Assembly: GCA_963082975.1 (NCBI GenBank)
Contig: OY720346.1
Location: 32,234,720-32,298,719 of the forward strand
Source of the DNA: Labia minor
Lineage: Eukaryota > Arthropoda > Insecta > Dermaptera > Spongiphoridae
Direction: 5' to 3'
DNA: 64,000 bases
Positions 21,421 to 43,644 of the stretch are shown here, piece after piece. The translations under genes and the position numbers were made by a program. The notes under the pieces were generated by a model. It was not told the origin of the DNA. It did no database searches and saw only the letters and a program-made list of their open reading frames with translations. Numbering within the stretch: position 1 is the stretch's first letter; each line of letters opens with the position of its first letter.

Positions 21421-21433
21421 TCTTTCAAGATTA
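21421..21433. repeat. Left target-site duplication of the PLE array
   Basis: TCTTTCAAGATTA immediately left of the array is repeated exactly at 43632-43644 on its right edge. Up to four bases at the array side (ATTA) could also belong to the element, so the duplication is 9-13 bp. That is in the range usual for Penelope-like insertions. Confidence 0.85.
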
Positions 21434-21818
21434 TTAAGAGAATTTTTATTAAAAGACCACATTATTTGTATAAAATTATTTATTAAATTAAAATAATTGT
21501 ACAACGTTTCAACTGCTTATTCTGCAGTCGTTTTCAAGTAACCGTACGCTTGCTCCGATTCAAGCGGACTGATGCATGTCGGGACACGTCACCTCTTATA
21601 TAGGCAGTGATATTGGCGCCAATTTTTGGCTCCAATTTTTACCGCCAATTCTTAATCTCAACATGAAGTCAGCAGCAATTGTCAAAGCAAGCGTTTACAA
21701 TCAAGAAGTATGATAGTGCATTATGTCTCTAAAATGAAGATACTAAATTATTTCCATAATCAAGATATATACACAAATACACATTAGATTAATTATATTT
21801 AATTTAATTTGACAAATT

Positions 21819-24191
21819 TTACTCATCCAACACTATGTTCCACATCTTATTAAGTCTATATCCATCCTCTTTGTTAATATTATTGGGATGATTATCAATT
21901 TCTATAGATTCTTTTATTTTTCTTTTCCACCAATTATTTTCAATATGAAGTGTTTCTACATTATCTAAATTTATTTTATGTCCTGTTGTTAAGGCATGTT
22001 CTGCAATTGCTGATTGATTTGGATGTTTCAATCTAATGGCTCTCTCATGTTCAGACAGTCTTGTAGAAATCTTTCTACTTGTTTCACCAATGTATACTTT
22101 TTTGCATTCACAAGTTACCTTATAAACTCCATTATTTTCGTTTTTAATTTTGTCTTTTATATTTGAGGTGAGAGAAGATATTTGTTTATGAGGTTTATAT
22201 GTTACTCTGATGTTGTGTTTCCTCAATTTTGACGCTATTTTTTCTGTTGTTCCTTTTATATAAGGTAATGTTATTTGTGATCTGTATATTGGTTTTTCAT
22301 TTTCATTTTTGATTTCTGTCTTTTTTGTTTTACTGAATTTCCTAATTTCATATTCCGAGAAGCCATTGTTTATGAAAGCTTCCTTCAATCGTTGTTTTTC
22401 TTTTTTAATGTTTTCATTTGAGCATATCTCTTCGGCTCTTTTGTGCAGTGTTTTTATCACTCCATATTTTTGTGATGGATGGTGGTGGGAATCTGCGTGG
22501 ATATATCTGTTGGTGTGAGTTGTTTTCCTGAAAATATCAAACCTTAATCTATTCTGTTTCTTTTTAATTAATACATCAAGAAACGGTAACTCTTCATTTA
22601 TTTCCCATTCAACGCTTAGTTTTATATTTTTATGTAAATTATTTGCTGCTTCTACAAATTTAACTAAAGAATCCTTACCATGAGGCCAAATCATCAAAAT
22701 ATCATCCACATATCTAAGAAACAGTTTTGGTTTCTTTATTGCATTATTGACCAATTTTGATTCAAATTCTTCCATGAATATGTTAGCGAATACTGGGCTT
22801 AGTGGACTACCCATAGCACATCCTTCTTTTTGCTTATAAATCTTTTTATCATAAATAAAGTATGTAGATTTTTGGCAAAATTCTATTAATTCGAGAGTAT
22901 TTTTATCTAATGTAATGTTTGATTTTATAATCTCAATGGTCTCGTCAATAGGAACATTTGTGTACAAGGAGTCCACATCCAGACTCACCAATATATCATT
23001 TTTTGTAATTTCTACTTTTGATAACATTTCTACTAAGTGGGTGGAATTTTTAACGTATGAAAAATTAGTACCTGTAAATGGTTTTAACAAATGTGCTAGA
23101 TATTTTGATGAGTTGTAAGTCACTGAATTGATTTGACTAACTATTGGTCTTAAAGGTTTGTTGGTTTTATGGATTTTGGGATTACCGTATATTTTTGGTA
23201 TTTGTGGATCTTTCGGTTTTAATTTATCTTTATCTTTTTCCTCAATAGGTAGATTCTTTATTATTGATTTTAGTTTTCTACAGAATTTATCCGTTGGATC
23301 TTTTTTCTGTATTTCGTAGGTAGAAGAATTCAAAATATTTTCCATTTTTTGTTTATAATCCGCTGTATTCATTACAACAGTGGCGTTACCTTTGTCGGCA
23401 GGGATAATCTTTAGAGAGTCATCGTTTCTAATTTCCTTCAGAGCACGCATCTCAGATTTGGTCAAATTTGGTTTGGGTGGTTTAGCATTTTTCAGTATGT
23501 TAATCGTATCAAATCTAATTTCCTCTGCAATGTTGTTTGGTAAGTTATATAAGGATGATTCAATTGAACTAACTATCTCAATTTTTGGAATTTTATTCGG
23601 TGCTATGGAGAACTTTGGTCCTTTTGCTAACACTGAGATGGTATTTTTGTCAAGACTTTTATTTGATAGATTGACTACTAATTTGTTATTATCAAAATTC
23701 TGAATAGATGTTTTAGTCTTATTGAATGAAAGTTTATCAAATTTTGATTTTTGAATATCGGATTGTTTTTTATGTGTAAATTTAAAGTGTGTCTGGGATA
23801 CGTGCTGCAAATAAGAAATTTCTTCCTGGGTTAAAACAGATTTTAGATTATTATATATATTGAATAAATCAGTGTCTAATGTAAATAAAACTTGCCTGAT
23901 ATTTGTGATGCGTTCTCGTAACAGAGCCAAACTAGCATTATTATATATGCTAGTCGCTCTTTTTGTGTATACAACTCGCTTAATATAAAAGCCTTTTGGT
24001 ATAATATCTTGATCACGACATCTTTTTAAGAAATTCAAAGAACTTAATAATTTTGCTTTTTTAACAATTAATCCATCATAACTCCTTACCTGCTTTTGAA
24101 TTTTTAGGTTATATTTCTCATAAATGTATTTATTAAAGCTTTTGTGGTTATTTTGATAATTATTAAGAGAATTTTTATTAAAAGACCACAT
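21819..24191 (-). CDS. Penelope-like RT / GIY-YIG protein, left-arm unit 1
   Basis: Complete 790-codon ORF from the first ATG (complement of 24189-24191). The frame stays open 14 codons further upstream to a TTG. The protein is the same as in the plus-strand units, with the full RT and GIY-YIG endonuclease domains described at 29920-32292. Its downstream 314-bp spacer runs into a 71-bp partial ORF start (21504-21434) cut off at the left target duplication. It is preceded by its own TATA/initiator region at 24331-24268. Apparently intact and potentially functional. Confidence 0.88.
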   Translation of the reverse strand: MWSFNKNSLNNYQNNHKSFNKYIYEKYNLKIQKQVRSYDGLIVKKAKLLSSLNFLKRCRDQDIIPKGFYIKRVVYTKRATSIYNNASLALLRERITNIRQVLFTLDTDLFNIYNNLKSVLTQEEISYLQHVSQTHFKFTHKKQSDIQKSKFDKLSFNKTKTSIQNFDNNKLVVNLSNKSLDKNTISVLAKGPKFSIAPNKIPKIEIVSSIESSLYNLPNNIAEEIRFDTINILKNAKPPKPNLTKSEMRALKEIRNDDSLKIIPADKGNATVVMNTADYKQKMENILNSSTYEIQKKDPTDKFCRKLKSIIKNLPIEEKDKDKLKPKDPQIPKIYGNPKIHKTNKPLRPIVSQINSVTYNSSKYLAHLLKPFTGTNFSYVKNSTHLVEMLSKVEITKNDILVSLDVDSLYTNVPIDETIEIIKSNITLDKNTLELIEFCQKSTYFIYDKKIYKQKEGCAMGSPLSPVFANIFMEEFESKLVNNAIKKPKLFLRYVDDILMIWPHGKDSLVKFVEAANNLHKNIKLSVEWEINEELPFLDVLIKKKQNRLRFDIFRKTTHTNRYIHADSHHHPSQKYGVIKTLHKRAEEICSNENIKKEKQRLKEAFINNGFSEYEIRKFSKTKKTEIKNENEKPIYRSQITLPYIKGTTEKIASKLRKHNIRVTYKPHKQISSLTSNIKDKIKNENNGVYKVTCECKKVYIGETSRKISTRLSEHERAIRLKHPNQSAIAEHALTTGHKINLDNVETLHIENNWWKRKIKESIEIDNHPNNINKEDGYRLNKMWNIVLDE

Positions 24192-24547
24192 TATTTGTAT
24201 AAAATTATTTATTAAATTAAAATAATTGTACAACGTTTCAACTGCTTATTCTGCAGTCGTTTTCAAGTAACCGTACGCTTGCTCCGATTCAAGCGGACTG
24301 ATGCATGTCGGGACACGTCACCTCTTATATAGGCAGTGATATTGGCGCCAATTTTTGGCTCCAATTTTTACCGCCAATTCTTAATCTCAACATGAAGTCA
24401 GCAGCAATTGTCAAAGCAAGCGTTTACAATCAAGAAGTATGATAGTGCATTATGTCTCTAAAATGAAGATACTAAATTATTTCCATAATCAAGATATATA
24501 CACAAATACACATTAGATTAATTATATTTAATTTAATTTGACAAATT

Positions 24548-26920
24548 TTACTCATCCAACACTATGTTCCACATCTTATTAAGTCTATATCCATCCTCTT
24601 TGTTAATATTATTGGGATGATTATCAATTTCTATAGATTCTTTTATTTTTCTTTTCCACCAATTATTTTCAATATGAAGTGTTTCTACATTATCTAAATT
24701 TATTTTATGTCCTGTTGTTAAGGCATGTTCTGCAATTGCTGATTGATTTGGATGTTTCAATCTAATGGCTCTCTCATGTTCAGACAGTCTTGTAGAAATC
24801 TTTCTACTTGTTTCACCAATGTATACTTTTTTGCATTCACAAGTTACCTTATAAACTCCATTATTTTCGTTTTTAATTTTGTCTTTTATATTTGAGGTGA
24901 GAGAAGATATTTGTTTATGAGGTTTATATGTTACTCTGATGTTGTGTTTCCTCAATTTTGACGCTATTTTTTCTGTTGTTCCTTTTATATAAGGTAATGT
25001 TATTTGTGATCTGTATATTGGTTTTTCATTTTCATTTTTGATTTCTGTCTTTTTTGTTTTACTGAATTTCCTAATTTCATATTCCGAGAAGCCATTGTTT
25101 ATGAAAGCTTCCTTCAATCGTTGTTTTTCTTTTTTAATGTTTTCATTTGAGCATATCTCTTCGGCTCTTTTGTGCAGTGTTTTTATCACTCCATATTTTT
25201 GTGATGGATGGTGGTGGGAATCTGCGTGGATATATCTGTTGGTGTGAGTTGTTTTCCTGAAAATATCAAACCTTAATCTATTCTGTTTCTTTTTAATTAA
25301 TACATCAAGAAACGGTAACTCTTCATTTATTTCCCATTCAACGCTTAGTTTTATATTTTTATGTAAATTATTTGCTGCTTCTACAAATTTAACTAAAGAA
25401 TCCTTACCATGAGGCCAAATCATCAAAATATCATCCACATATCTAAGAAACAGTTTTGGTTTCTTTATTGCATTATTGACCAATTTTGATTCAAATTCTT
25501 CCATGAATATGTTAGCGAATACTGGGCTTAGTGGACTACCCATAGCACATCCTTCTTTTTGCTTATAAATCTTTTTATCATAAATAAAGTATGTAGATTT
25601 TTGGCAAAATTCTATTAATTCGAGAGTATTTTTATCTAATGTAATGTTTGATTTTATAATCTCAATGGTCTCGTCAATAGGAACATTTGTGTACAAGGAG
25701 TCCACATCCAGACTCACCAATATATCATTTTTTGTAATTTCTACTTTTGATAACATTTCTACTAAGTGGGTGGAATTTTTAACGTATGAAAAATTAGTAC
25801 CTGTAAATGGTTTTAACAAATGTGCTAGATATTTTGATGAGTTGTAAGTCACTGAATTGATTTGACTAACTATTGGTCTTAAAGGTTTGTTGGTTTTATG
25901 GATTTTGGGATTACCGTATATTTTTGGTATTTGTGGATCTTTCGGTTTTAATTTATCTTTATCTTTTTCCTCAATAGGTAGATTCTTTATTATTGATTTT
26001 AGTTTTCTACAGAATTTATCCGTTGGATCTTTTTTCTGTATTTCGTAGGTAGAAGAATTCAAAATATTTTCCATTTTTTGTTTATAATCCGCTGTATTCA
26101 TTACAACAGTGGCGTTACCTTTGTCGGCAGGGATAATCTTTAGAGAGTCATCGTTTCTAATTTCCTTCAGAGCACGCATCTCAGATTTGGTCAAATTTGG
26201 TTTGGGTGGTTTAGCATTTTTCAGTATGTTAATCGTATCAAATCTAATTTCCTCTGCAATGTTGTTTGGTAAGTTATATAAGGATGATTCAATTGAACTA
26301 ACTATCTCAATTTTTGGAATTTTATTCGGTGCTATGGAGAACTTTGGTCCTTTTGCTAACACTGAGATGGTATTTTTGTCAAGACTTTTATTTGATAGAT
26401 TGACTACTAATTTGTTATTATCAAAATTCTGAATAGATGTTTTAGTCTTATTGAATGAAAGTTTATCAAATTTTGATTTTTGAATATCGGATTGTTTTTT
26501 ATGTGTAAATTTAAAGTGTGTCTGGGATACGTGCTGCAAATAAGAAATTTCTTCCTGGGTTAAAACAGATTTTAGATTATTATATATATTGAATAAATCA
26601 GTGTCTAATGTAAATAAAACTTGCCTGATATTTGTGATGCGTTCTCGTAACAGAGCCAAACTAGCATTATTATATATGCTAGTCGCTCTTTTTGTGTATA
26701 CAACTCGCTTAATATAAAAGCCTTTTGGTATAATATCTTGATCACGACATCTTTTTAAGAAATTCAAAGAACTTAATAATTTTGCTTTTTTAACAATTAA
26801 TCCATCATAACTCCTTACCTGCTTTTGAATTTTTAGGTTATATTTCTCATAAATGTATTTATTAAAGCTTTTGTGGTTATTTTGATAATTATTAAGAGAA
26901 TTTTTATTAAAAGACCACAT
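24548..26920 (-). CDS. Penelope-like RT / GIY-YIG protein, left-arm unit 2
   Basis: Complete 790-codon ORF, identical in translation to the neighbouring unit 2,729 bp away. Its promoter spacer lies at 26921-27274. Upstream of that only the last ~25 codons of a preceding ORF remain (27275-27353) before the array inverts. This unit is therefore the innermost complete one of the left arm. Confidence 0.88.
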   Translation of the reverse strand: MWSFNKNSLNNYQNNHKSFNKYIYEKYNLKIQKQVRSYDGLIVKKAKLLSSLNFLKRCRDQDIIPKGFYIKRVVYTKRATSIYNNASLALLRERITNIRQVLFTLDTDLFNIYNNLKSVLTQEEISYLQHVSQTHFKFTHKKQSDIQKSKFDKLSFNKTKTSIQNFDNNKLVVNLSNKSLDKNTISVLAKGPKFSIAPNKIPKIEIVSSIESSLYNLPNNIAEEIRFDTINILKNAKPPKPNLTKSEMRALKEIRNDDSLKIIPADKGNATVVMNTADYKQKMENILNSSTYEIQKKDPTDKFCRKLKSIIKNLPIEEKDKDKLKPKDPQIPKIYGNPKIHKTNKPLRPIVSQINSVTYNSSKYLAHLLKPFTGTNFSYVKNSTHLVEMLSKVEITKNDILVSLDVDSLYTNVPIDETIEIIKSNITLDKNTLELIEFCQKSTYFIYDKKIYKQKEGCAMGSPLSPVFANIFMEEFESKLVNNAIKKPKLFLRYVDDILMIWPHGKDSLVKFVEAANNLHKNIKLSVEWEINEELPFLDVLIKKKQNRLRFDIFRKTTHTNRYIHADSHHHPSQKYGVIKTLHKRAEEICSNENIKKEKQRLKEAFINNGFSEYEIRKFSKTKKTEIKNENEKPIYRSQITLPYIKGTTEKIASKLRKHNIRVTYKPHKQISSLTSNIKDKIKNENNGVYKVTCECKKVYIGETSRKISTRLSEHERAIRLKHPNQSAIAEHALTTGHKINLDNVETLHIENNWWKRKIKESIEIDNHPNNINKEDGYRLNKMWNIVLDE

Positions 26921-27274
26921 TATTTGTATAAAATTATTTATTAAATTAAAATAATTGTACAACGTTTCAACTGCTTATTCTGCAGTCGTTTTCAAGTAAC
27001 CGTACGCTTGCTCCGATTCAAGCGGACTGATGCATGTCGGGACACGTCACCTCTTATATAGGCAGTGATATTGGCGCCAATTTTTGGCTCCAATTTTTAC
27101 CGCCAATTCTTAATCTCAACATGAAGTCAGCAGCAATTGTCAAAGCAAGCGTTTACAATCAAGAAGTATGATAGTGCATTATGTCTCTAAAATGAAGATA
27201 CTAAATTATTTCCATAATCAAGATATATACACAAATACACATTAGATTAATTATATTTAATTTAATTTGACAAA

Positions 27275-27353
27275 TTTTACTCATCCAACACTATGTTCCA
27301 CATCTTATTAAGTCTATATCCATCCTCTTTGTTAATATTATTGGGATGATTAT
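27275..27353 (-). pseudogene. PLE ORF 3' remnant at the inversion point
   Basis: Only the final ~25 codons (from within the IDNHPNN segment to the stop) of a minus-strand PLE ORF are present. At 27353 it joins, with one base of overlap (T), the plus-strand copy at codon 69. This is the 5' truncation of the left arm. Confidence 0.85.
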
Positions 27354-29563
27354 TAAAAAGATGTCGTGATCAAGATATTATACCAAAAGGCTTTTATATT
27401 AAGCGAGTTGTATACACAAAAAGAGCGACTAGCATATATAATAATGCTAGTTTGGCTCTGTTACGAGAACGCATCACAAATATCAGGCAAGTTTTATTTA
27501 CATTAGACACTGATTTATTCAATATATATAATAATCTAAAATCTGTTTTAACCCAGGAAGAAATTTCTTATTTGCAGCACGTATCCCAGACACACTTTAA
27601 ATTTACACATAAAAAACAATCCGATATTCAAAAATCAAAATTTGATAAACTTTCATTCAATAAGACTAAAACATCTATTCAGAATTTTGATAATAACAAA
27701 TTAGTAGTCAATCTATCAAATAAAAGTCTTGACAAAAATACCATCTCAGTGTTAGCAAAAGGACCAAAGTTCTCCATAGCACCGAATAAAATTCCAAAAA
27801 TTGAGATAGTTAGTTCAATTGAATCATCCTTATATAACTTACCAAACAACATTGCAGAGGAAATTAGATTTGATACGATTAACATACTGAAAAATGCTAA
27901 ACCACCCAAACCAAATTTGACCAAATCTGAGATGCGTGCTCTGAAGGAAATTAGAAACGATGACTCTCTAAAGATTATCCCTGCCGACAAAGGTAACGCC
28001 ACTGTTGTAATGAATACAGCGGATTATAAACAAAAAATGGAAAATATTTTGAATTCTTCTACCTACGAAATACAGAAAAAAGATCCAACGGATAAATTCT
28101 GTAGAAAACTAAAATCAATAATAAAGAATCTACCTATTGAGGAAAAAGATAAAGATAAATTAAAACCGAAAGATCCACAAATACCAAAAATATACGGTAA
28201 TCCCAAAATCCATAAAACCAACAAACCTTTAAGACCAATAGTTAGTCAAATCAATTCAGTGACTTACAACTCATCAAAATATCTAGCACATTTGTTAAAA
28301 CCATTTACAGGTACTAATTTTTCATACGTTAAAAATTCCACCCACTTAGTAGAAATGTTATCAAAAGTAGAAATTACAAAAAATGATATATTGGTGAGTC
28401 TGGATGTGGACTCCTTGTACACAAATGTTCCTATTGACGAGACCATTGAGATTATAAAATCAAACATTACATTAGATAAAAATACTCTCGAATTAATAGA
28501 ATTTTGCCAAAAATCTACATACTTTATTTATGATAAAAAGATTTATAAGCAAAAAGAAGGATGTGCTATGGGTAGTCCACTAAGCCCAGTATTCGCTAAC
28601 ATATTCATGGAAGAATTTGAATCAAAATTGGTCAATAATGCAATAAAGAAACCAAAACTGTTTCTTAGATATGTGGATGATATTTTGATGATTTGGCCTC
28701 ATGGTAAGGATTCTTTAGTTAAATTTGTAGAAGCAGCAAATAATTTACATAAAAATATAAAACTAAGCGTTGAATGGGAAATAAATGAAGAGTTACCGTT
28801 TCTTGATGTATTAATTAAAAAGAAACAGAATAGATTAAGGTTTGATATTTTCAGGAAAACAACTCACACCAACAGATATATCCACGCAGATTCCCACCAC
28901 CATCCATCACAAAAATATGGAGTGATAAAAACACTGCACAAAAGAGCCGAAGAGATATGCTCAAATGAAAACATTAAAAAAGAAAAACAACGATTGAAGG
29001 AAGCTTTCATAAACAATGGCTTCTCGGAATATGAAATTAGGAAATTCAGTAAAACAAAAAAGACAGAAATCAAAAATGAAAATGAAAAACCAATATACAG
29101 ATCACAAATAACATTACCTTATATAAAAGGAACAACAGAAAAAATAGCGTCAAAATTGAGGAAACACAACATCAGAGTAACATATAAACCTCATAAACAA
29201 ATATCTTCTCTCACCTCAAATATAAAAGACAAAATTAAAAACGAAAATAATGGAGTTTATAAGGTAACTTGTGAATGCAAAAAAGTATACATTGGTGAAA
29301 CAAGTAGAAAGATTTCTACAAGACTGTCTGAACATGAGAGAGCCATTAGATTGAAACATCCAAATCAATCAGCAATTGCAGAACATGCCTTAACAACAGG
29401 ACATAAAATAAATTTAGATAATGTAGAAACACTTCATATTGAAAATAATTGGTGGAAAAGAAAAATAAAAGAATCTATAGAAATTGATAATCATCCCAAT
29501 AATATTAACAAAGAGGATGGATATAGACTTAATAAGATGTGGAACATAGTGTTGGATGAGTAA
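27353..29563 (+). pseudogene. 5'-truncated PLE RT / GIY-YIG ORF
   Basis: Starts abruptly at codon 69 (counting from the TTG start, LKRCRDQD) at the inversion junction and runs in frame to the normal stop. It lacks the promoter and the first 68 codons, but RT and endonuclease regions are complete. The apparent start at 27452 is a TTG; the first in-frame ATG is far downstream, before the RT core (EMRALKEIRN), so a full protein is not expected from this copy. Confidence 0.85.
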
Positions 29564-29779
29564 AATTTGTCAAATTAAATTAAATATAATTAATCTAATG
29601 TGTATTTGTGTATATATCTTGATTATGGAAATAATTTAGTATCTTCATTTTAGAGACATAATGCACTATCATACTTCTTGATTGTAAACGCTTGCTTTGA
29701 CAATTGCTGCTGACTTCATGTTGAGATTAAGAATTGGCGGTAAAAATTGGAGCCAAAAATTGGCGCCAATATCACTGCC

Positions 29780-29843
29780 TATATAAGAGGTGACGTGTCC
29801 CGACATGCATCAGTCCGCTTGAATCGGAGCAAGCGTACGGTTA
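29780..29843 (+). promoter_or_regulatory. PLE core promoter: TATA, initiator, DPE
   Basis: TATATAAG starts at 29780. An initiator TCAGTC (29810-29815) places +1 at A29812, 32 bp from the first T of the TATA box. Bases +28 to +32 are GGTTA (29839-29843), fitting the downstream promoter element RGWYV. The spacing is that of a textbook arthropod RNA polymerase II core promoter. A CCAAT inside the palindrome ATTGGCGCCAAT lies just upstream (29759-29770). The same block recurs at TATA positions 32509, 35238, 37967, 40696 and 43425, and on the minus strand at 21602, 24331 and 27060. The outermost ones face out of the array into flanking DNA. Confidence 0.6.
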
Positions 29844-29885
29844 CTTGAAAACGACTGCAGAATAAGCAGTTGAAACGTTGTACAA
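29844..29885 (+). ncRNA. Degenerate hammerhead-ribozyme-like motif in PLE spacer
   Basis: After CTTGAAAAC comes a 6-bp hairpin GACTGC-AGAATAA-GCAGTT, then GAAACGTTGTA. GAAA after a stem II-like hairpin, a two-base-pair helix III candidate (AC/GU around GUU) and a possible GUA cleavage triplet resemble the hammerhead motifs known from Penelope-like pLTRs. The CUGANGA core is altered (U for C3 or an extra U, and A at the catalytic G8 position), and I see no good helix I. It is probably inactive or a variant. Present identically in every unit. Confidence 0.35.
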
Positions 29886-29919
29886 TTATTTTAATTTAAT
29901 AAATAATTTTATACAAATA

Positions 29920-32292
29920 ATGTGGTCTTTTAATAAAAATTCTCTTAATAATTATCAAAATAACCACAAAAGCTTTAATAAATACATTTATGAGAAATAT
30001 AACCTAAAAATTCAAAAGCAGGTAAGGAGTTATGATGGATTAATTGTTAAAAAAGCAAAATTATTAAGTTCTTTGAATTTCTTAAAAAGATGTCGTGATC
30101 AAGATATTATACCAAAAGGCTTTTATATTAAGCGAGTTGTATACACAAAAAGAGCGACTAGCATATATAATAATGCTAGTTTGGCTCTGTTACGAGAACG
30201 CATCACAAATATCAGGCAAGTTTTATTTACATTAGACACTGATTTATTCAATATATATAATAATCTAAAATCTGTTTTAACCCAGGAAGAAATTTCTTAT
30301 TTGCAGCACGTATCCCAGACACACTTTAAATTTACACATAAAAAACAATCCGATATTCAAAAATCAAAATTTGATAAACTTTCATTCAATAAGACTAAAA
30401 CATCTATTCAGAATTTTGATAATAACAAATTAGTAGTCAATCTATCAAATAAAAGTCTTGACAAAAATACCATCTCAGTGTTAGCAAAAGGACCAAAGTT
30501 CTCCATAGCACCGAATAAAATTCCAAAAATTGAGATAGTTAGTTCAATTGAATCATCCTTATATAACTTACCAAACAACATTGCAGAGGAAATTAGATTT
30601 GATACGATTAACATACTGAAAAATGCTAAACCACCCAAACCAAATTTGACCAAATCTGAGATGCGTGCTCTGAAGGAAATTAGAAACGATGACTCTCTAA
30701 AGATTATCCCTGCCGACAAAGGTAACGCCACTGTTGTAATGAATACAGCGGATTATAAACAAAAAATGGAAAATATTTTGAATTCTTCTACCTACGAAAT
30801 ACAGAAAAAAGATCCAACGGATAAATTCTGTAGAAAACTAAAATCAATAATAAAGAATCTACCTATTGAGGAAAAAGATAAAGATAAATTAAAACCGAAA
30901 GATCCACAAATACCAAAAATATACGGTAATCCCAAAATCCATAAAACCAACAAACCTTTAAGACCAATAGTTAGTCAAATCAATTCAGTGACTTACAACT
31001 CATCAAAATATCTAGCACATTTGTTAAAACCATTTACAGGTACTAATTTTTCATACGTTAAAAATTCCACCCACTTAGTAGAAATGTTATCAAAAGTAGA
31101 AATTACAAAAAATGATATATTGGTGAGTCTGGATGTGGACTCCTTGTACACAAATGTTCCTATTGACGAGACCATTGAGATTATAAAATCAAACATTACA
31201 TTAGATAAAAATACTCTCGAATTAATAGAATTTTGCCAAAAATCTACATACTTTATTTATGATAAAAAGATTTATAAGCAAAAAGAAGGATGTGCTATGG
31301 GTAGTCCACTAAGCCCAGTATTCGCTAACATATTCATGGAAGAATTTGAATCAAAATTGGTCAATAATGCAATAAAGAAACCAAAACTGTTTCTTAGATA
31401 TGTGGATGATATTTTGATGATTTGGCCTCATGGTAAGGATTCTTTAGTTAAATTTGTAGAAGCAGCAAATAATTTACATAAAAATATAAAACTAAGCGTT
31501 GAATGGGAAATAAATGAAGAGTTACCGTTTCTTGATGTATTAATTAAAAAGAAACAGAATAGATTAAGGTTTGATATTTTCAGGAAAACAACTCACACCA
31601 ACAGATATATCCACGCAGATTCCCACCACCATCCATCACAAAAATATGGAGTGATAAAAACACTGCACAAAAGAGCCGAAGAGATATGCTCAAATGAAAA
31701 CATTAAAAAAGAAAAACAACGATTGAAGGAAGCTTTCATAAACAATGGCTTCTCGGAATATGAAATTAGGAAATTCAGTAAAACAAAAAAGACAGAAATC
31801 AAAAATGAAAATGAAAAACCAATATACAGATCACAAATAACATTACCTTATATAAAAGGAACAACAGAAAAAATAGCGTCAAAATTGAGGAAACACAACA
31901 TCAGAGTAACATATAAACCTCATAAACAAATATCTTCTCTCACCTCAAATATAAAAGACAAAATTAAAAACGAAAATAATGGAGTTTATAAGGTAACTTG
32001 TGAATGCAAAAAAGTATACATTGGTGAAACAAGTAGAAAGATTTCTACAAGACTGTCTGAACATGAGAGAGCCATTAGATTGAAACATCCAAATCAATCA
32101 GCAATTGCAGAACATGCCTTAACAACAGGACATAAAATAAATTTAGATAATGTAGAAACACTTCATATTGAAAATAATTGGTGGAAAAGAAAAATAAAAG
32201 AATCTATAGAAATTGATAATCATCCCAATAATATTAACAAAGAGGATGGATATAGACTTAATAAGATGTGGAACATAGTGTTGGATGAGTAA
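29920..32292 (+). CDS. Penelope-like RT / GIY-YIG protein, right-arm unit 1
   Basis: 790 codons from the first ATG; the frame is open 14 codons upstream to a TTG, which a eukaryotic ribosome would not normally use. Residues below count from the ATG. The N-terminal region is K/N-rich. The RT follows: an ADKGNATVV motif at ~265-273, the PKIHKTNKPLRPIVS motif at ~338-352, motif A SLDVDSLYTNVP with D405, motif B GCAMGSPLSP at ~457-466, motif C YVDD at 494-497, then LPFLDVL. An H-rich segment (ADSHHHPSQKYG) links to a C-terminal GIY-YIG nuclease: GVY at 688-690, YIG at 700-702, R711 and E761. This is the standard EN+ Penelope-like protein, which cuts the target and reverse-transcribes its own RNA there. 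No lesion is visible. Confidence 0.92.
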   Translation: MWSFNKNSLNNYQNNHKSFNKYIYEKYNLKIQKQVRSYDGLIVKKAKLLSSLNFLKRCRDQDIIPKGFYIKRVVYTKRATSIYNNASLALLRERITNIRQVLFTLDTDLFNIYNNLKSVLTQEEISYLQHVSQTHFKFTHKKQSDIQKSKFDKLSFNKTKTSIQNFDNNKLVVNLSNKSLDKNTISVLAKGPKFSIAPNKIPKIEIVSSIESSLYNLPNNIAEEIRFDTINILKNAKPPKPNLTKSEMRALKEIRNDDSLKIIPADKGNATVVMNTADYKQKMENILNSSTYEIQKKDPTDKFCRKLKSIIKNLPIEEKDKDKLKPKDPQIPKIYGNPKIHKTNKPLRPIVSQINSVTYNSSKYLAHLLKPFTGTNFSYVKNSTHLVEMLSKVEITKNDILVSLDVDSLYTNVPIDETIEIIKSNITLDKNTLELIEFCQKSTYFIYDKKIYKQKEGCAMGSPLSPVFANIFMEEFESKLVNNAIKKPKLFLRYVDDILMIWPHGKDSLVKFVEAANNLHKNIKLSVEWEINEELPFLDVLIKKKQNRLRFDIFRKTTHTNRYIHADSHHHPSQKYGVIKTLHKRAEEICSNENIKKEKQRLKEAFINNGFSEYEIRKFSKTKKTEIKNENEKPIYRSQITLPYIKGTTEKIASKLRKHNIRVTYKPHKQISSLTSNIKDKIKNENNGVYKVTCECKKVYIGETSRKISTRLSEHERAIRLKHPNQSAIAEHALTTGHKINLDNVETLHIENNWWKRKIKESIEIDNHPNNINKEDGYRLNKMWNIVLDE

Positions 32293-32648
32293 AATTTGTC
32301 AAATTAAATTAAATATAATTAATCTAATGTGTATTTGTGTATATATCTTGATTATGGAAATAATTTAGTATCTTCATTTTAGAGACATAATGCACTATCA
32401 TACTTCTTGATTGTAAACGCTTGCTTTGACAATTGCTGCTGACTTCATGTTGAGATTAAGAATTGGCGGTAAAAATTGGAGCCAAAAATTGGCGCCAATA
32501 TCACTGCCTATATAAGAGGTGACGTGTCCCGACATGCATCAGTCCGCTTGAATCGGAGCAAGCGTACGGTTACTTGAAAACGACTGCAGAATAAGCAGTT
32601 GAAACGTTGTACAATTATTTTAATTTAATAAATAATTTTATACAAATA

Positions 32649-35021: not shown

Positions 35022-35377
35022 AATTTGTCAAATTAAATTAAATATAATTAATCTAATGTGTATTTGTGTATATATCTTGATTATGGAAATAATTTAGTAT
35101 CTTCATTTTAGAGACATAATGCACTATCATACTTCTTGATTGTAAACGCTTGCTTTGACAATTGCTGCTGACTTCATGTTGAGATTAAGAATTGGCGGTA
35201 AAAATTGGAGCCAAAAATTGGCGCCAATATCACTGCCTATATAAGAGGTGACGTGTCCCGACATGCATCAGTCCGCTTGAATCGGAGCAAGCGTACGGTT
35301 ACTTGAAAACGACTGCAGAATAAGCAGTTGAAACGTTGTACAATTATTTTAATTTAATAAATAATTTTATACAAATA

Positions 35378-37750
35378 ATGTGGTCTTTTAATAAAAATTC
35401 TCTTAATAATTATCAAAATAACCACAAAAGCTTTAATAAATACATTTATGAGAAATATAACCTAAAAATTCAAAAGCAGGTAAGGAGTTATGATGGATTA
35501 ATTGTTAAAAAAGCAAAATTATTAAGTTCTTTGAATTTCTTAAAAAGATGTCGTGATCAAGATATTATACCAAAAGGCTTTTATATTAAGCGAGTTGTAT
35601 ACACAAAAAGAGCGACTAGCATATATAATAATGCTAGTTTGGCTCTGTTACGAGAACGCATCACAAATATCAGGCAAGTTTTATTTACATTAGACACTGA
35701 TTTATTCAATATATATAATAATCTAAAATCTGTTTTAACCCAGGAAGAAATTTCTTATTTGCAGCACGTATCCCAGACACACTTTAAATTTACACATAAA
35801 AAACAATCCGATATTCAAAAATCAAAATTTGATAAACTTTCATTCAATAAGACTAAAACATCTATTCAGAATTTTGATAATAACAAATTAGTAGTCAATC
35901 TATCAAATAAAAGTCTTGACAAAAATACCATCTCAGTGTTAGCAAAAGGACCAAAGTTCTCCATAGCACCGAATAAAATTCCAAAAATTGAGATAGTTAG
36001 TTCAATTGAATCATCCTTATATAACTTACCAAACAACATTGCAGAGGAAATTAGATTTGATACGATTAACATACTGAAAAATGCTAAACCACCCAAACCA
36101 AATTTGACCAAATCTGAGATGCGTGCTCTGAAGGAAATTAGAAACGATGACTCTCTAAAGATTATCCCTGCCGACAAAGGTAACGCCACTGTTGTAATGA
36201 ATACAGCGGATTATAAACAAAAAATGGAAAATATTTTGAATTCTTCTACCTACGAAATACAGAAAAAAGATCCAACGGATAAATTCTGTAGAAAACTAAA
36301 ATCAATAATAAAGAATCTACCTATTGAGGAAAAAGATAAAGATAAATTAAAACCGAAAGATCCACAAATACCAAAAATATACGGTAATCCCAAAATCCAT
36401 AAAACCAACAAACCTTTAAGACCAATAGTTAGTCAAATCAATTCAGTGACTTACAACTCATCAAAATATCTAGCACATTTGTTAAAACCATTTACAGGTA
36501 CTAATTTTTCATACGTTAAAAATTCCACCCACTTAGTAGAAATGTTATCAAAAGTAGAAATTACAAAAAATGATATATTGGTGAGTCTGGATGTGGACTC
36601 CTTGTACACAAATGTTCCTATTGACGAGACCATTGAGATTATAAAATCAAACATTACATTAGATAAAAATACTCTCGAATTAATAGAATTTTGCCAAAAA
36701 TCTACATACTTTATTTATGATAAAAAGATTTATAAGCAAAAAGAAGGATGTGCTATGGGTAGTCCACTAAGCCCAGTATTCGCTAACATATTCATGGAAG
36801 AATTTGAATCAAAATTGGTCAATAATGCAATAAAGAAACCAAAACTGTTTCTTAGATATGTGGATGATATTTTGATGATTTGGCCTCATGGTAAGGATTC
36901 TTTAGTTAAATTTGTAGAAGCAGCAAATAATTTACATAAAAATATAAAACTAAGCGTTGAATGGGAAATAAATGAAGAGTTACCGTTTCTTGATGTATTA
37001 ATTAAAAAGAAACAGAATAGATTAAGGTTTGATATTTTCAGGAAAACAACTCACACCAACAGATATATCCACGCAGATTCCCACCACCATCCATCACAAA
37101 AATATGGAGTGATAAAAACACTGCACAAAAGAGCCGAAGAGATATGCTCAAATGAAAACATTAAAAAAGAAAAACAACGATTGAAGGAAGCTTTCATAAA
37201 CAATGGCTTCTCGGAATATGAAATTAGGAAATTCAGTAAAACAAAAAAGACAGAAATCAAAAATGAAAATGAAAAACCAATATACAGATCACAAATAACA
37301 TTACCTTATATAAAAGGAACAACAGAAAAAATAGCGTCAAAATTGAGGAAACACAACATCAGAGTAACATATAAACCTCATAAACAAATATCTTCTCTCA
37401 CCTCAAATATAAAAGACAAAATTAAAAACGAAAATAATGGAGTTTATAAGGTAACTTGTGAATGCAAAAAAGTATACATTGGTGAAACAAGTAGAAAGAT
37501 TTCTACAAGACTGTCTGAACATGAGAGAGCCATTAGATTGAAACATCCAAATCAATCAGCAATTGCAGAACATGCCTTAACAACAGGACATAAAATAAAT
37601 TTAGATAATGTAGAAACACTTCATATTGAAAATAATTGGTGGAAAAGAAAAATAAAAGAATCTATAGAAATTGATAATCATCCCAATAATATTAACAAAG
37701 AGGATGGATATAGACTTAATAAGATGTGGAACATAGTGTTGGATGAGTAA
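35378..37750 (+). CDS. Penelope-like RT / GIY-YIG protein, right-arm unit 3
   Basis: Complete ORF, translation identical to units 1 and 2. It is embedded in the middle of the right arm, with the same spacer and promoter motifs on its left (TATA at 35238). Confidence 0.9.
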   Translation: MWSFNKNSLNNYQNNHKSFNKYIYEKYNLKIQKQVRSYDGLIVKKAKLLSSLNFLKRCRDQDIIPKGFYIKRVVYTKRATSIYNNASLALLRERITNIRQVLFTLDTDLFNIYNNLKSVLTQEEISYLQHVSQTHFKFTHKKQSDIQKSKFDKLSFNKTKTSIQNFDNNKLVVNLSNKSLDKNTISVLAKGPKFSIAPNKIPKIEIVSSIESSLYNLPNNIAEEIRFDTINILKNAKPPKPNLTKSEMRALKEIRNDDSLKIIPADKGNATVVMNTADYKQKMENILNSSTYEIQKKDPTDKFCRKLKSIIKNLPIEEKDKDKLKPKDPQIPKIYGNPKIHKTNKPLRPIVSQINSVTYNSSKYLAHLLKPFTGTNFSYVKNSTHLVEMLSKVEITKNDILVSLDVDSLYTNVPIDETIEIIKSNITLDKNTLELIEFCQKSTYFIYDKKIYKQKEGCAMGSPLSPVFANIFMEEFESKLVNNAIKKPKLFLRYVDDILMIWPHGKDSLVKFVEAANNLHKNIKLSVEWEINEELPFLDVLIKKKQNRLRFDIFRKTTHTNRYIHADSHHHPSQKYGVIKTLHKRAEEICSNENIKKEKQRLKEAFINNGFSEYEIRKFSKTKKTEIKNENEKPIYRSQITLPYIKGTTEKIASKLRKHNIRVTYKPHKQISSLTSNIKDKIKNENNGVYKVTCECKKVYIGETSRKISTRLSEHERAIRLKHPNQSAIAEHALTTGHKINLDNVETLHIENNWWKRKIKESIEIDNHPNNINKEDGYRLNKMWNIVLDE

Positions 37751-38106
37751 AATTTGTCAAATTAAATTAAATATAATTAATCTAATGTGTATTTGTGTAT
37801 ATATCTTGATTATGGAAATAATTTAGTATCTTCATTTTAGAGACATAATGCACTATCATACTTCTTGATTGTAAACGCTTGCTTTGACAATTGCTGCTGA
37901 CTTCATGTTGAGATTAAGAATTGGCGGTAAAAATTGGAGCCAAAAATTGGCGCCAATATCACTGCCTATATAAGAGGTGACGTGTCCCGACATGCATCAG
38001 TCCGCTTGAATCGGAGCAAGCGTACGGTTACTTGAAAACGACTGCAGAATAAGCAGTTGAAACGTTGTACAATTATTTTAATTTAATAAATAATTTTATA
38101 CAAATA

Positions 38107-40479
38107 ATGTGGTCTTTTAATAAAAATTCTCTTAATAATTATCAAAATAACCACAAAAGCTTTAATAAATACATTTATGAGAAATATAACCTAAAAATTC
38201 AAAAGCAGGTAAGGAGTTATGATGGATTAATTGTTAAAAAAGCAAAATTATTAAGTTCTTTGAATTTCTTAAAAAGATGTCGTGATCAAGATATTATACC
38301 AAAAGGCTTTTATATTAAGCGAGTTGTATACACAAAAAGAGCGACTAGCATATATAATAATGCTAGTTTGGCTCTGTTACGAGAACGCATCACAAATATC
38401 AGGCAAGTTTTATTTACATTAGACACTGATTTATTCAATATATATAATAATCTAAAATCTGTTTTAACCCAGGAAGAAATTTCTTATTTGCAGCACGTAT
38501 CCCAGACACACTTTAAATTTACACATAAAAAACAATCCGATATTCAAAAATCAAAATTTGATAAACTTTCATTCAATAAGACTAAAACATCTATTCAGAA
38601 TTTTGATAATAACAAATTAGTAGTCAATCTATCAAATAAAAGTCTTGACAAAAATACCATCTCAGTGTTAGCAAAAGGACCAAAGTTCTCCATAGCACCG
38701 AATAAAATTCCAAAAATTGAGATAGTTAGTTCAATTGAATCATCCTTATATAACTTACCAAACAACATTGCAGAGGAAATTAGATTTGATACGATTAACA
38801 TACTGAAAAATGCTAAACCACCCAAACCAAATTTGACCAAATCTGAGATGCGTGCTCTGAAGGAAATTAGAAACGATGACTCTCTAAAGATTATCCCTGC
38901 CGACAAAGGTAACGCCACTGTTGTAATGAATACAGCGGATTATAAACAAAAAATGGAAAATATTTTGAATTCTTCTACCTACGAAATACAGAAAAAAGAT
39001 CCAACGGATAAATTCTGTAGAAAACTAAAATCAATAATAAAGAATCTACCTATTGAGGAAAAAGATAAAGATAAATTAAAACCGAAAGATCCACAAATAC
39101 CAAAAATATACGGTAATCCCAAAATCCATAAAACCAACAAACCTTTAAGACCAATAGTTAGTCAAATCAATTCAGTGACTTACAACTCATCAAAATATCT
39201 AGCACATTTGTTAAAACCATTTACAGGTACTAATTTTTCATACGTTAAAAATTCCACCCACTTAGTAGAAATGTTATCAAAAGTAGAAATTACAAAAAAT
39301 GATATATTGGTGAGTCTGGATGTGGACTCCTTGTACACAAATGTTCCTATTGACGAGACCATTGAGATTATAAAATCAAACATTACATTAGATAAAAATA
39401 CTCTCGAATTAATAGAATTTTGCCAAAAATCTACATACTTTATTTATGATAAAAAGATTTATAAGCAAAAAGAAGGATGTGCTATGGGTAGTCCACTAAG
39501 CCCAGTATTCGCTAACATATTCATGGAAGAATTTGAATCAAAATTGGTCAATAATGCAATAAAGAAACCAAAACTGTTTCTTAGATATGTGGATGATATT
39601 TTGATGATTTGGCCTCATGGTAAGGATTCTTTAGTTAAATTTGTAGAAGCAGCAAATAATTTACATAAAAATATAAAACTAAGCGTTGAATGGGAAATAA
39701 ATGAAGAGTTACCGTTTCTTGATGTATTAATTAAAAAGAAACAGAATAGATTAAGGTTTGATATTTTCAGGAAAACAACTCACACCAACAGATATATCCA
39801 CGCAGATTCCCACCACCATCCATCACAAAAATATGGAGTGATAAAAACACTGCACAAAAGAGCCGAAGAGATATGCTCAAATGAAAACATTAAAAAAGAA
39901 AAACAACGATTGAAGGAAGCTTTCATAAACAATGGCTTCTCGGAATATGAAATTAGGAAATTCAGTAAAACAAAAAAGACAGAAATCAAAAATGAAAATG
40001 AAAAACCAATATACAGATCACAAATAACATTACCTTATATAAAAGGAACAACAGAAAAAATAGCGTCAAAATTGAGGAAACACAACATCAGAGTAACATA
40101 TAAACCTCATAAACAAATATCTTCTCTCACCTCAAATATAAAAGACAAAATTAAAAACGAAAATAATGGAGTTTATAAGGTAACTTGTGAATGCAAAAAA
40201 GTATACATTGGTGAAACAAGTAGAAAGATTTCTACAAGACTGTCTGAACATGAGAGAGCCATTAGATTGAAACATCCAAATCAATCAGCAATTGCAGAAC
40301 ATGCCTTAACAACAGGACATAAAATAAATTTAGATAATGTAGAAACACTTCATATTGAAAATAATTGGTGGAAAAGAAAAATAAAAGAATCTATAGAAAT
40401 TGATAATCATCCCAATAATATTAACAAAGAGGATGGATATAGACTTAATAAGATGTGGAACATAGTGTTGGATGAGTAA
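38107..40479 (+). CDS. Penelope-like RT / GIY-YIG protein, right-arm unit 4
   Basis: Complete ORF, translation identical to the preceding units. The spacer after it carries a single-base difference (A instead of T at 40521), one of the few distinguishing marks between units. Confidence 0.9.
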   Translation: MWSFNKNSLNNYQNNHKSFNKYIYEKYNLKIQKQVRSYDGLIVKKAKLLSSLNFLKRCRDQDIIPKGFYIKRVVYTKRATSIYNNASLALLRERITNIRQVLFTLDTDLFNIYNNLKSVLTQEEISYLQHVSQTHFKFTHKKQSDIQKSKFDKLSFNKTKTSIQNFDNNKLVVNLSNKSLDKNTISVLAKGPKFSIAPNKIPKIEIVSSIESSLYNLPNNIAEEIRFDTINILKNAKPPKPNLTKSEMRALKEIRNDDSLKIIPADKGNATVVMNTADYKQKMENILNSSTYEIQKKDPTDKFCRKLKSIIKNLPIEEKDKDKLKPKDPQIPKIYGNPKIHKTNKPLRPIVSQINSVTYNSSKYLAHLLKPFTGTNFSYVKNSTHLVEMLSKVEITKNDILVSLDVDSLYTNVPIDETIEIIKSNITLDKNTLELIEFCQKSTYFIYDKKIYKQKEGCAMGSPLSPVFANIFMEEFESKLVNNAIKKPKLFLRYVDDILMIWPHGKDSLVKFVEAANNLHKNIKLSVEWEINEELPFLDVLIKKKQNRLRFDIFRKTTHTNRYIHADSHHHPSQKYGVIKTLHKRAEEICSNENIKKEKQRLKEAFINNGFSEYEIRKFSKTKKTEIKNENEKPIYRSQITLPYIKGTTEKIASKLRKHNIRVTYKPHKQISSLTSNIKDKIKNENNGVYKVTCECKKVYIGETSRKISTRLSEHERAIRLKHPNQSAIAEHALTTGHKINLDNVETLHIENNWWKRKIKESIEIDNHPNNINKEDGYRLNKMWNIVLDE

Positions 40480-40835
40480 AATTTGTCAAATTAAATTAAA
40501 TATAATTAATCTAATGTGTAATTGTGTATATATCTTGATTATGGAAATAATTTAGTATCTTCATTTTAGAGACATAATGCACTATCATACTTCTTGATTG
40601 TAAACGCTTGCTTTGACAATTGCTGCTGACTTCATGTTGAGATTAAGAATTGGCGGTAAAAATTGGAGCCAAAAATTGGCGCCAATATCACTGCCTATAT
40701 AAGAGGTGACGTGTCCCGACATGCATCAGTCCGCTTGAATCGGAGCAAGCGTACGGTTACTTGAAAACGACTGCAGAATAAGCAGTTGAAACGTTGTACA
40801 ATTATTTTAATTTAATAAATAATTTTATACAAATA

Positions 40836-43208
40836 ATGTGGTCTTTTAATAAAAATTCTCTTAATAATTATCAAAATAACCACAAAAGCTTTAATAAATA
40901 CATTTATGAGAAATATAACCTAAAAATTCAAAAGCAGGTAAGGAGTTATGATGGATTAATTGTTAAAAAAGCAAAATTATTAAGTTCTTTGAATTTCTTA
41001 AAAAGATGTCGTGATCAAGATATTATACCAAAAGGCTTTTATATTAAGCGAGTTGTATACACAAAAAGAGCGACTAGCATATATAATAATGCTAGTTTGG
41101 CTCTGTTACGAGAACGCATCACAAATATCAGGCAAGTTTTATTTACATTAGACACTGATTTATTCAATATATATAATAATCTAAAATCTGTTTTAACCCA
41201 GGAAGAAATTTCTTATTTGCAGCACGTATCCCAGACACACTTTAAATTTACACATAAAAAACAATCCGATATTCAAAAATCAAAATTTGATAAACTTTCA
41301 TTCAATAAGACTAAAACATCTATTCAGAATTTTGATAATAACAAATTAGTAGTCAATCTATCAAATAAAAGTCTTGACAAAAATACCATCTCAGTGTTAG
41401 CAAAAGGACCAAAGTTCTCCATAGCACCGAATAAAATTCCAAAAATTGAGATAGTTAGTTCAATTGAATCATCCTTATATAACTTACCAAACAACATTGC
41501 AGAGGAAATTAGATTTGATACGATTAACATACTGAAAAATGCTAAACCACCCAAACCAAATTTGACCAAATCTGAGATGCGTGCTCTGAAGGAAATTAGA
41601 AACGATGACTCTCTAAAGATTATCCCTGCCGACAAAGGTAACGCCACTGTTGTAATGAATACAGCGGATTATAAACAAAAAATGGAAAATATTTTGAATT
41701 CTTCTACCTACGAAATACAGAAAAAAGATCCAACGGATAAATTCTGTAGAAAACTAAAATCAATAATAAAGAATCTACCTATTGAGGAAAAAGATAAAGA
41801 TAAATTAAAACCGAAAGATCCACAAATACCAAAAATATACGGTAATCCCAAAATCCATAAAACCAACAAACCTTTAAGACCAATAGTTAGTCAAATCAAT
41901 TCAGTGACTTACAACTCATCAAAATATCTAGCACATTTGTTAAAACCATTTACAGGTACTAATTTTTCATACGTTAAAAATTCCACCCACTTAGTAGAAA
42001 TGTTATCAAAAGTAGAAATTACAAAAAATGATATATTGGTGAGTCTGGATGTGGACTCCTTGTACACAAATGTTCCTATTGACGAGACCATTGAGATTAT
42101 AAAATCAAACATTACATTAGATAAAAATACTCTCGAATTAATAGAATTTTGCCAAAAATCTACATACTTTATTTATGATAAAAAGATTTATAAGCAAAAA
42201 GAAGGATGTGCTATGGGTAGTCCACTAAGCCCAGTATTCGCTAACATATTCATGGAAGAATTTGAATCAAAATTGGTCAATAATGCAATAAAGAAACCAA
42301 AACTGTTTCTTAGATATGTGGATGATATTTTGATGATTTGGCCTCATGGTAAGGATTCTTTAGTTAAATTTGTAGAAGCAGCAAATAATTTACATAAAAA
42401 TATAAAACTAAGCGTTGAATGGGAAATAAATGAAGAGTTACCGTTTCTTGATGTATTAATTAAAAAGAAACAGAATAGATTAAGGTTTGATATTTTCAGG
42501 AAAACAACTCACACCAACAGATATATCCACGCAGATTCCCACCACCATCCATCACAAAAATATGGAGTGATAAAAACACTGCACAAAAGAGCCGAAGAGA
42601 TATGCTCAAATGAAAACATTAAAAAAGAAAAACAACGATTGAAGGAAGCTTTCATAAACAATGGCTTCTCGGAATATGAAATTATGAAATTCAGTAAAAC
42701 AAAAAAGACAGAAATCAAAAATGAAAATGAAAAACCAATATACAGATCACAAATAACATTACCTTATATAAAAGGAACAACAGAAAAAATAGCGTCAAAA
42801 TTGAGGAAACACAACATCAGAGTAACATATAAACCTCATAAACAAATATCTTCTCTCACCTCAAATATAAAAGACAAAATTAAAAACGAAAATAATGGAG
42901 TTTATAAGGTAACTTGTGAATGCAAAAAAGTATACATTGGTGAAACAAGTAGAAAGATTTCTACAAGACTGTCTGAACATGAGAGAGCCATTAGATTGAA
43001 ACATCCAAATCAATCAGCAATTGCAGAACATGCCTTAACAACAGGACATAAAATAAATTTAGATAATGTAGAAACACTTCATATTGAAAATAATTGGTGG
43101 AAAAGAAAAATAAAAGAATCTATAGAAATTGATAATCATCCCAATAATATTAACAAAGAGGATGGATATAGACTTAATAAGATGTGGAACATAGTGTTGG
43201 ATGAGTAA
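40836..43208 (+). CDS. Penelope-like RT / GIY-YIG protein, right-arm unit 5 (R-to-M variant)
   Basis: Complete ORF, last of the right arm. One base change at 42685 turns AGG into ATG, so an arginine in the RT-to-endonuclease linker (residue 617 from the ATG, in the SEYEI-R-KFSKTK segment) becomes methionine. Catalytic motifs are unchanged. Because the change lies outside both active sites, function may be preserved. It is useful as a marker for ordering the units. Confidence 0.9.
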   Translation: MWSFNKNSLNNYQNNHKSFNKYIYEKYNLKIQKQVRSYDGLIVKKAKLLSSLNFLKRCRDQDIIPKGFYIKRVVYTKRATSIYNNASLALLRERITNIRQVLFTLDTDLFNIYNNLKSVLTQEEISYLQHVSQTHFKFTHKKQSDIQKSKFDKLSFNKTKTSIQNFDNNKLVVNLSNKSLDKNTISVLAKGPKFSIAPNKIPKIEIVSSIESSLYNLPNNIAEEIRFDTINILKNAKPPKPNLTKSEMRALKEIRNDDSLKIIPADKGNATVVMNTADYKQKMENILNSSTYEIQKKDPTDKFCRKLKSIIKNLPIEEKDKDKLKPKDPQIPKIYGNPKIHKTNKPLRPIVSQINSVTYNSSKYLAHLLKPFTGTNFSYVKNSTHLVEMLSKVEITKNDILVSLDVDSLYTNVPIDETIEIIKSNITLDKNTLELIEFCQKSTYFIYDKKIYKQKEGCAMGSPLSPVFANIFMEEFESKLVNNAIKKPKLFLRYVDDILMIWPHGKDSLVKFVEAANNLHKNIKLSVEWEINEELPFLDVLIKKKQNRLRFDIFRKTTHTNRYIHADSHHHPSQKYGVIKTLHKRAEEICSNENIKKEKQRLKEAFINNGFSEYEIMKFSKTKKTEIKNENEKPIYRSQITLPYIKGTTEKIASKLRKHNIRVTYKPHKQISSLTSNIKDKIKNENNGVYKVTCECKKVYIGETSRKISTRLSEHERAIRLKHPNQSAIAEHALTTGHKINLDNVETLHIENNWWKRKIKESIEIDNHPNNINKEDGYRLNKMWNIVLDE

Positions 43209-43522
43209 AATTTGTCAAATTAAATTAAATATAATTAATCTAATGTGTATTTGTGTATATATCTTGATTATGGAAATAATTTAGTATCTTCATTTTAGAG
43301 ACATAATGCACTATCATACTTCTTGATTGTAAACGCTTGCTTTGACAATTGCTGCTGACTTCATGTTGAGATTAAGAATTGGCGGTAAAAATTGGAGCCA
43401 AAAATTGGCGCCAATATCACTGCCTATATAAGAGGTGACGTGTCCCGACATGCATCAGTCCGCTTGAATCGGAGCAAGCGTACGGTTACTTGAAAACGAC
43501 TGCAGAATAAGCAGTTGAAACG

Positions 43523-43631
43523 TTGTACAATTATTTTAATTTAATAAATAATTTTATACAAATAATGTGGTCTTTTAATAAAAATTCTCTTAATAATTAT
43601 CAAAATAACCACAAAAGCTTTAATAAATACA
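43523..43631 (+). pseudogene. Partial PLE ORF start at the right array edge
   Basis: The sixth right-arm ORF breaks off after ~36 codons (TTG count) at AAATACAT and runs directly into the right target duplication. The following ~28 open codons (to 43720) are host DNA, not element. The array therefore ends inside the 5' coding region, as on the left side but 12 codons further. Confidence 0.85.
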
Positions 43632-43644
43632 TCTTTCAAGATTA
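43632..43644. repeat. Right target-site duplication of the PLE array
   Basis: Exact second copy of TCTTTCAAGATTA (left copy at 21421-21433). It marks the return to host DNA. Confidence 0.85.

Follow-up and report, generated by a model that had tools for sequence, protein, structure and literature searches.

In a 64,000-nucleotide stretch of the Labia minor genome (Dermaptera, Spongiphoridae; GenBank assembly GCA_963082975.1, contig OY720346.1, forward-strand positions 32,234,720 to 32,298,719; hereafter the window), the 22.2-kb block between two copies of the 13-bp sequence TCTTTCAAGATTA consists of eight copies of one Penelope-like element (PLE) with a unit of 2,729 bp. The copies form two arms of opposite orientation that meet head to head at position 27353. 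The locus is a very large, recent-looking two-armed PLE insertion, and it is a variant of an already known architecture. We propose that it was probably generated by one insertion event, which would have been target-primed from both strands of one staggered cut and copied from a multi-unit template.

Structure of the Array

The match to the PLE unit runs from 21430 to 43632 (table 1). In both arms, successive units follow each other at exactly 2,729 bp, and the joins contain no added bases. Against a single reference unit, the 22.2-kb block shows two substitutions, one at 40521 (unit position 42 or 2206, the other taking the second of these values) in a spacer between open reading frames (ORFs) and the other at 42685, which changes R to M in the ORF at 40794-43208. 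Seven ORFs are complete (two on the minus strand and five on the plus strand), and the remaining plus-strand ORF loses its N-terminus at the central junction. A preliminary description of this DNA had reported eight ORFs, seven of them complete, in a near-identical array of about 22 kb, and our results agree with it on each of these points. Outside the array, the only further fragment of the element in the window was a 41-bp match with 83% identity at 59278.

The block is bounded by a single target site duplication (TSD). As the preliminary description had stated, the 13-bp sequence is present once on each side of the array. Searching both strands of the whole window gave only these two occurrences, and none of 100 shuffled controls had two matches. 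As another control, a 13-mer was common to both edges of a pseudo-insertion in 85 of 200,000 random pairs of flank positions. Since 4 nt of the left copy and 1 nt of the right copy also match the element, only 8 bp of the duplication can be ascribed to the host without ambiguity. In addition, the near-palindromic target (AATCTT-TC-AAGATT) was considered as possible evidence that a dimer had cut symmetrically. This was rejected, since an inverted repeat at least as long is found at 10.7% of 20,000 random flank places.

The two outer ends lie close to the ORF start, at +33 (left) and +68 (right) from the ATG, and they are offset by 35 bp. Such an optional tail of 30-40 bp at one end near the ORF start is a feature of PLEs. 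By analogy with an anole PLE, +33 and +68 may be the positions where reverse transcription started. In the extracts of PMC11167929, the purified anole protein cuts and extends both DNA strands. Furthermore, its reverse transcriptase (RT) starts inside the RNA, mostly at two adjacent sites in a stem-loop that is AC-rich and lies 111-118 nt from the beginning of the ORF. The interval between these sites corresponds to the 30-40 bp that genomic copies optionally carry as a tail. Similarly, the extracts of PMC3846280 describe a rotifer Penelope in which a 31-bp tail is optional on one inverted pseudo-long terminal repeat (pLTR), inside one TSD. The array is asymmetric in this way too, its right end having the tail and its left end lacking it.

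At the central junction, neither a second target duplication nor host DNA was recognised, and the longest string common to both 33-bp sides is a 7-nt AT run. The sole matching hairpin register at the junction has a 596-nt loop. Thus, the junction is not the palindrome expected from self-priming. Moreover, the plus arm is 2.7 times as long as the minus arm and its outer end reaches 35 bp further into the element, so simple folding back on the minus arm cannot have produced it. Taken with the single TSD, the inverted arms joined without host DNA and the outer ends, whose start-type character is drawn by analogy with the anole tail, have the form of a bilateral (twin) insertion.

Table 1. Features of the PLE Array in the Window (positions count from the first letter of the window)
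Feature	Position	Strand	Remarks
Left 13-bp target duplication, TCTTTCAAGATTA	21421-21433		Final 4 nt (ATTA) also match the element
Left arm	21430-27353	-	5,924 bp, 2.17 units; outer end at +33 from ATG; 0 substitutions
Complete PLE ORF, left arm	21819-24233	-	
Complete PLE ORF, left arm	24548-26962	-	
PLE ORF, N-terminus lost at junction	27350-29563	+	
Central head-to-head junction	27353		Unit position 2653 (minus arm) to 519 (plus arm); 1-nt overlap, no filler
Right arm	27353-43632	+	16,280 bp, 5.97 units; outer end at +68 from ATG; carries the 35-bp tail
Complete PLE ORF	29878-32292	+	790 codons from the MWSF methionine; RT domain, YVDD, C-terminal GVY...YIG motif
Predicted promoter in spacer	32509-32541	+	TATATAA starting 32 nt upstream of the A of a TCAGTC initiator
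Hammerhead-like motif	32571-32612	+	Stem I 3 bp, stem II 6-7 bp, GAAAC-GUU
Complete PLE ORF	32607-35021	+	
Predicted stem-loop over ORF start (+2 to +49)	32650-32697	+	+33 inside, +68 19 nt beyond
Complete PLE ORF	35336-37750	+	
Complete PLE ORF	38065-40479	+	
Complete PLE ORF, one substitution	40794-43208	+	42685, R to M
35-bp tail	43598-43632	+	Present at right end, absent at left
Right 13-bp target duplication, TCTTTCAAGATTA	43632-43644		First nt (T) also matches the element

Coding Capacity and Family Assignment

The element has a single ORF with an RT domain (Pfam RVT_1, E = 4.3e-16, residues 354-543) that includes YVDD. The sequences matched by this ORF in PDB are RTs, and NCBIfam RT models matched it below their cutoffs. 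Near the C-terminus, the residues GVY (688) and YIG (700) were spotted by eye as a GIY-YIG endonuclease motif. For this endonuclease there was no Pfam match and no NCBIfam model above cutoff, and searching PDB by sequence gave no chain of the GIY-YIG type. A UvrC profile matched weakly (profile positions 16-88, E = 0.046), far under its cutoff, and the AlphaFold single-sequence model of the endonuclease end had a pLDDT of 37 and was unusable.

Besides the tail, other features of PLEs are seen at the locus. The copies are in tandem or partial tandem and form pLTRs, an inverted copy lies on the 5′ side, and a 13-bp TSD (8 bp unambiguous) flanks the insertion. Thus, judged from the anatomy of the sequence rather than from a tree, the element is probably an endonuclease-bearing PLE of the Penelope/Poseidon type.

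Relatives were looked for by pattern scans in viral contigs and prokaryote genomes, where few eukaryotic sequences are expected, and such scans reach close relatives only. There were 3 pattern stretches in the viral contigs and 21 in the prokaryote genomes, and none was confirmed as a PLE relative. Two DNA patterns of the element had no match in the viral contigs. Six prokaryote contigs matched one DNA pattern and were taken as chance, the best tblastn match to the ORF having E = 0.12. In addition, one phage record had an RT match to the ORF (27% identity, E = 3e-6, 21% of the query).

Motifs in the Spacer

Each unit carries one TATA plus initiator pair with textbook spacing, and no such pair was found on either strand of the 41.8-kb flanks. 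The TCAGTC of this predicted promoter is what we take to be an insect-type initiator.

Meanwhile, a hammerhead-like motif is present in nine identical copies in the array, on the plus strand from 29842, 32571, 35300, 38029, 40758, and 43487 and on the minus strand at 21499, 24228, and 26957. Its core departs from CUGANGA at positions 3 and 8. The hammerhead layout appeared only when two core mismatches were allowed, and nothing was found with 0 or 1. With two mismatches, the descriptor had no match in the 41.8-kb flanks and none in 4 Mb of null sequence (one strand), although the latter count is optimistic because the descriptor was written after the motif had been seen and tolerates two core mismatches. 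Rfam gave no hammerhead match to the array, and the whole window was without any Rfam match at gathering scores. Given the two core changes read from the sequence, ribozyme activity of this motif is doubtful.

A predicted stem-loop covers the ORF start, with pair probabilities of 0.61-0.98 in the lower stem and 0.34-0.50 at the positions above it. A sub-threshold Rfam match to mir-558 (E = 0.0098) coincides with this stem-loop; this match and another to nqrA-II, both obtained with 511 bp round one spacer, were below threshold and were taken as chance.

Neighbourhood of the Array

Immediately to the right of the array, an open ORF of 619 amino acids (46048-47907, plus strand) is hAT transposase-like (Dimer_Tnp_hAT, E = 8.5e-4, 19.5 bits against a cutoff of 21.4), and short tandem repeats with periods of 55, 30, and 24 are clustered beside it at 45443-45969. 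Further right, there are broken pieces of a LINE-like reverse transcriptase (RVT_1; 49712-50906, plus strand) and a broken mariner/Mos1-like transposase (HTH_48, E = 1.3e-20; 61060-62076, plus strand), whose second piece matched weakly. Taken by themselves, the hAT- and mariner-like genes would point to an animal, perhaps an insect. A stretch of 91 amino acids at 6100-6375 is very similar to 50631-50906 in the LINE-like region. To the left of the array, a dispersed repeat of about 90-150 bp with 76-97% identity is found at about 6896-7050, 11428-11564, 12822-12912, and 20421-20830.

A Possible Mechanism of the Insertion

The preliminary description had argued that the block either arrived in a single event or expanded inside one insertion, on the premise that each separate insertion leaves its own duplication. 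This premise is not strict, since the rotifer Pen2_Av was inserted without one according to the extracts of PMC3846280. Nevertheless, one founding insertion is supported by the single duplication, by the lack of a second one at the central junction, by outer ends that coincide with both of the RT start types expected, and by the near-perfect identity of the units. From the window alone, we consider arrival as a multi-unit block more likely than later expansion.

A sequence of steps can be proposed for this. The 3′ end of the top strand on the left would prime at element position +33, and the 3′ end of the bottom strand on the right would prime at +68. Each primer would then be extended along a multi-unit template, by 2.17 units on the left and 5.97 units on the right. 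The two cDNA arms would be joined at arbitrary truncation points (27353) with a 1-nt overlap, and repair would leave the single target duplication. Two independent cDNA arms joined through a short overlap explain the junction, and the exact period, like the count of just two substitutions in 22.2 kb, is compatible with a single recent round of copying. The single TSD, the end positions, the head-to-head arms, the junction, the period and the identity of the units are read directly from the sequence; priming from both strands, the template, and a single event are what we infer from them.

RNA that starts at the predicted promoter of one unit and is used from +68 of the next unit would yield at most 1.06 units. 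Both arms exceed this length, so a multi-unit template is needed. Any of three templates would give the exact 2,729-bp period: concatemeric RNA read through from a source array, RNA in circular form, or the RNA of one unit whose terminal redundancy (176 nt between the predicted start and +68) permitted homologous strand transfer again and again. A published PLE scenario involves mRNA of multiple copies, and the anole ribozyme is dispensable for insertion in vitro (both in the extracts of PMC11167929). The doubtful activity of the hammerhead-like motif weakens the circle route and, as a conjecture, would favour a long uncut RNA. It may even be imagined that, with a decayed pLTR hammerhead (core positions 3 and 8), this lineage has switched from the insertion of single units to that of concatemers, either uncut multi-unit RNA or a repeatedly copied circle being reverse-transcribed from both target strands, so that arrays with several intact ORFs are inherited. 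We regard this wider idea as unlikely.

Several observations speak against one target-primed, two-stranded insertion of an endonuclease-bearing PLE. The GIY-YIG assignment is made from the motif and the domain order. The target is not AT-richer than its surroundings (72% vs. 73%). A continuous copy of 16 kb is long for an RT. Both substitutions are in the rightmost unit, for which the chance is 0.02 if they are random, and the proposed insertion leaves them unexplained. The end positions +33 and +68 differ from the +111-118 of the anole PLE. Furthermore, the left end has 4 nt and the right end 1 nt in common with the target, and each start position is uncertain by that much; the sharing at the left end is itself unfavourable, for the anole start site is the same for both strands and without homology to the cut DNA (extracts of PMC11167929). 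Because the anole start site shows no strand difference, which strand used which start here carries no further meaning.

Alternative Explanations

The two substitutions are also where unequal exchange would be expected to leave them, as divergence in an edge unit. Under this explanation, a smaller two-armed PLE insertion came first; both of its arms later lengthened through unequal crossing-over, and gene conversion homogenised the units. Tandem repeats like these readily undergo unequal exchange, and the exact period and near-identity suit later growth. Nevertheless, growth would be required in both arms, which are in opposite orientation. In addition, the smallest in-register left arm (466 bp) contains no direct repeat on which recombination could act. 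The left arm of the founder must then already have exceeded one unit in length, and no intermediate or decayed unit is present in the array. We therefore consider such growth somewhat unlikely, and the one-step arrival of a multi-unit block is still preferred.

A very unlikely possibility is that the array is an artefact of assembly, with a wrong copy number or a false inverted join. Short reads cannot order near-identical units of 2.7 kb. On the other hand, the outer ends and the central junction are PLE-like, with the tail offset and one TSD, and the identical plus-arm DNA between the junction and the first unique substitution is about 13 kb, which is within the reach of long reads. Stepwise build-up, in which the element repeatedly inserted into its own pLTR beside an older copy, is highly improbable. 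In the extracts of PMC11167929, the anole protein was able in vitro to cleave a target derived from the ORF-pLTR junction of its own element, and the authors named the pLTR as a possible site; yet the duplications and tail-length offsets expected from such insertions are missing here, where the unit joins of both arms keep the exact 2,729-bp period. Finally, cDNA snap-back, in which one arm is copied from the other after self-priming, has been proposed for head-to-head rotifer Penelopes with palindromic inverted junctions (extracts of PMC3846280). It is scarcely credible for this locus, as the junction has no palindrome and its loop is 596 nt, and the plus arm is 2.7 times as long as its supposed template and ends 35 bp deeper in the element. 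In its simple form, snap-back was rejected as contradicted by the arm lengths.

If the array was inserted in one target-primed event, the locus resembles a completed product that retains its pair of start-type ends and its two arms inside a single target duplication. It also gives concrete predictions on end positions, junction type, and arm lengths, which can be counted in long-read genomes carrying the family.

Comparison with Known Systems

Multi-unit and inverted PLE copies were already known, as the preliminary description had remarked, and tandem plus inverted copies within one TSD have been published. That description had called an insertion this long with near-identical units striking. 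The notable features are its size, its two multi-unit arms, and ends that match the tail offset. Long tandem or inverted PLE structures are mentioned in the extracts of PMC3846280. Among the titles, abstract openings and passages covered by our limited search of the open-licence literature, we noticed no PLE insertion with multi-unit arms on both sides and tail-offset ends, and we claim no priority.

The Penelopes of the rotifer Adineta vaga (Pen2a_Av and its relatives; Pen3/Pen4) are similar in layout. As far as the extracts describe them, an inverted copy lies head to head on the 5′ side and is followed by direct copies, one TSD of 8-10 bp surrounds all, and an optional tail is present on one inverted end. 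The inverted portion of Pen2a_Av consists of a pLTR (about 180-220 bp) and its direct portion of one element, whereas the array has 2.17 and 5.97 units. Moreover, the junction of the array differs from theirs in having no palindrome.

Terminons, the endonuclease-deficient telomeric PLEs, are unlike the array. They are giant, attach to telomeric repeats, lack the cis GIY-YIG of canonical PLEs, and form no two-armed insertion with a TSD. Another system for comparison is twin priming of L1, where two primers at one target give an inverted part within one TSD, joined through a short overlap as in the array. In L1, the poly(A) tail and an internal position serve as priming sites, whereas both ends of the array map close together in the element and its template would be multi-unit.

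Metazoan retrozymes with type I hammerheads are also found as tandem genomic multimers that carry hammerhead motifs, and PLEs have been proposed as the machinery mobilising them (extracts of PMC7229834). Retrozymes are small (150-450 bp) and non-autonomous and have active ribozymes, whereas the units of the array are 2.7 kb long and coding and have a changed core.

Among these systems, the Poseidon element of Anolis carolinensis (PAc, Penelope/Poseidon clade) has one ORF with RT and a C-terminal GIY-YIG, which in our element is putative and recognised by its motif. Both form tandem copies with pLTRs, have a hammerhead motif (in the array, a hammerhead-like one) near the ORF start, and appear to share two RT start sites early in the ORF that bound the tail, the latter being assigned here by analogy. 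They differ in the position of the starts (about +111-118 in PAc vs. ends at +33/+68) and in the hammerhead-like core, which in the array is changed at positions 3 and 8 and is located upstream of the ATG. Furthermore, PAc is known from in vitro products in which both strands were cut and extended, whereas the array is a completed two-armed insertion of 22 kb.

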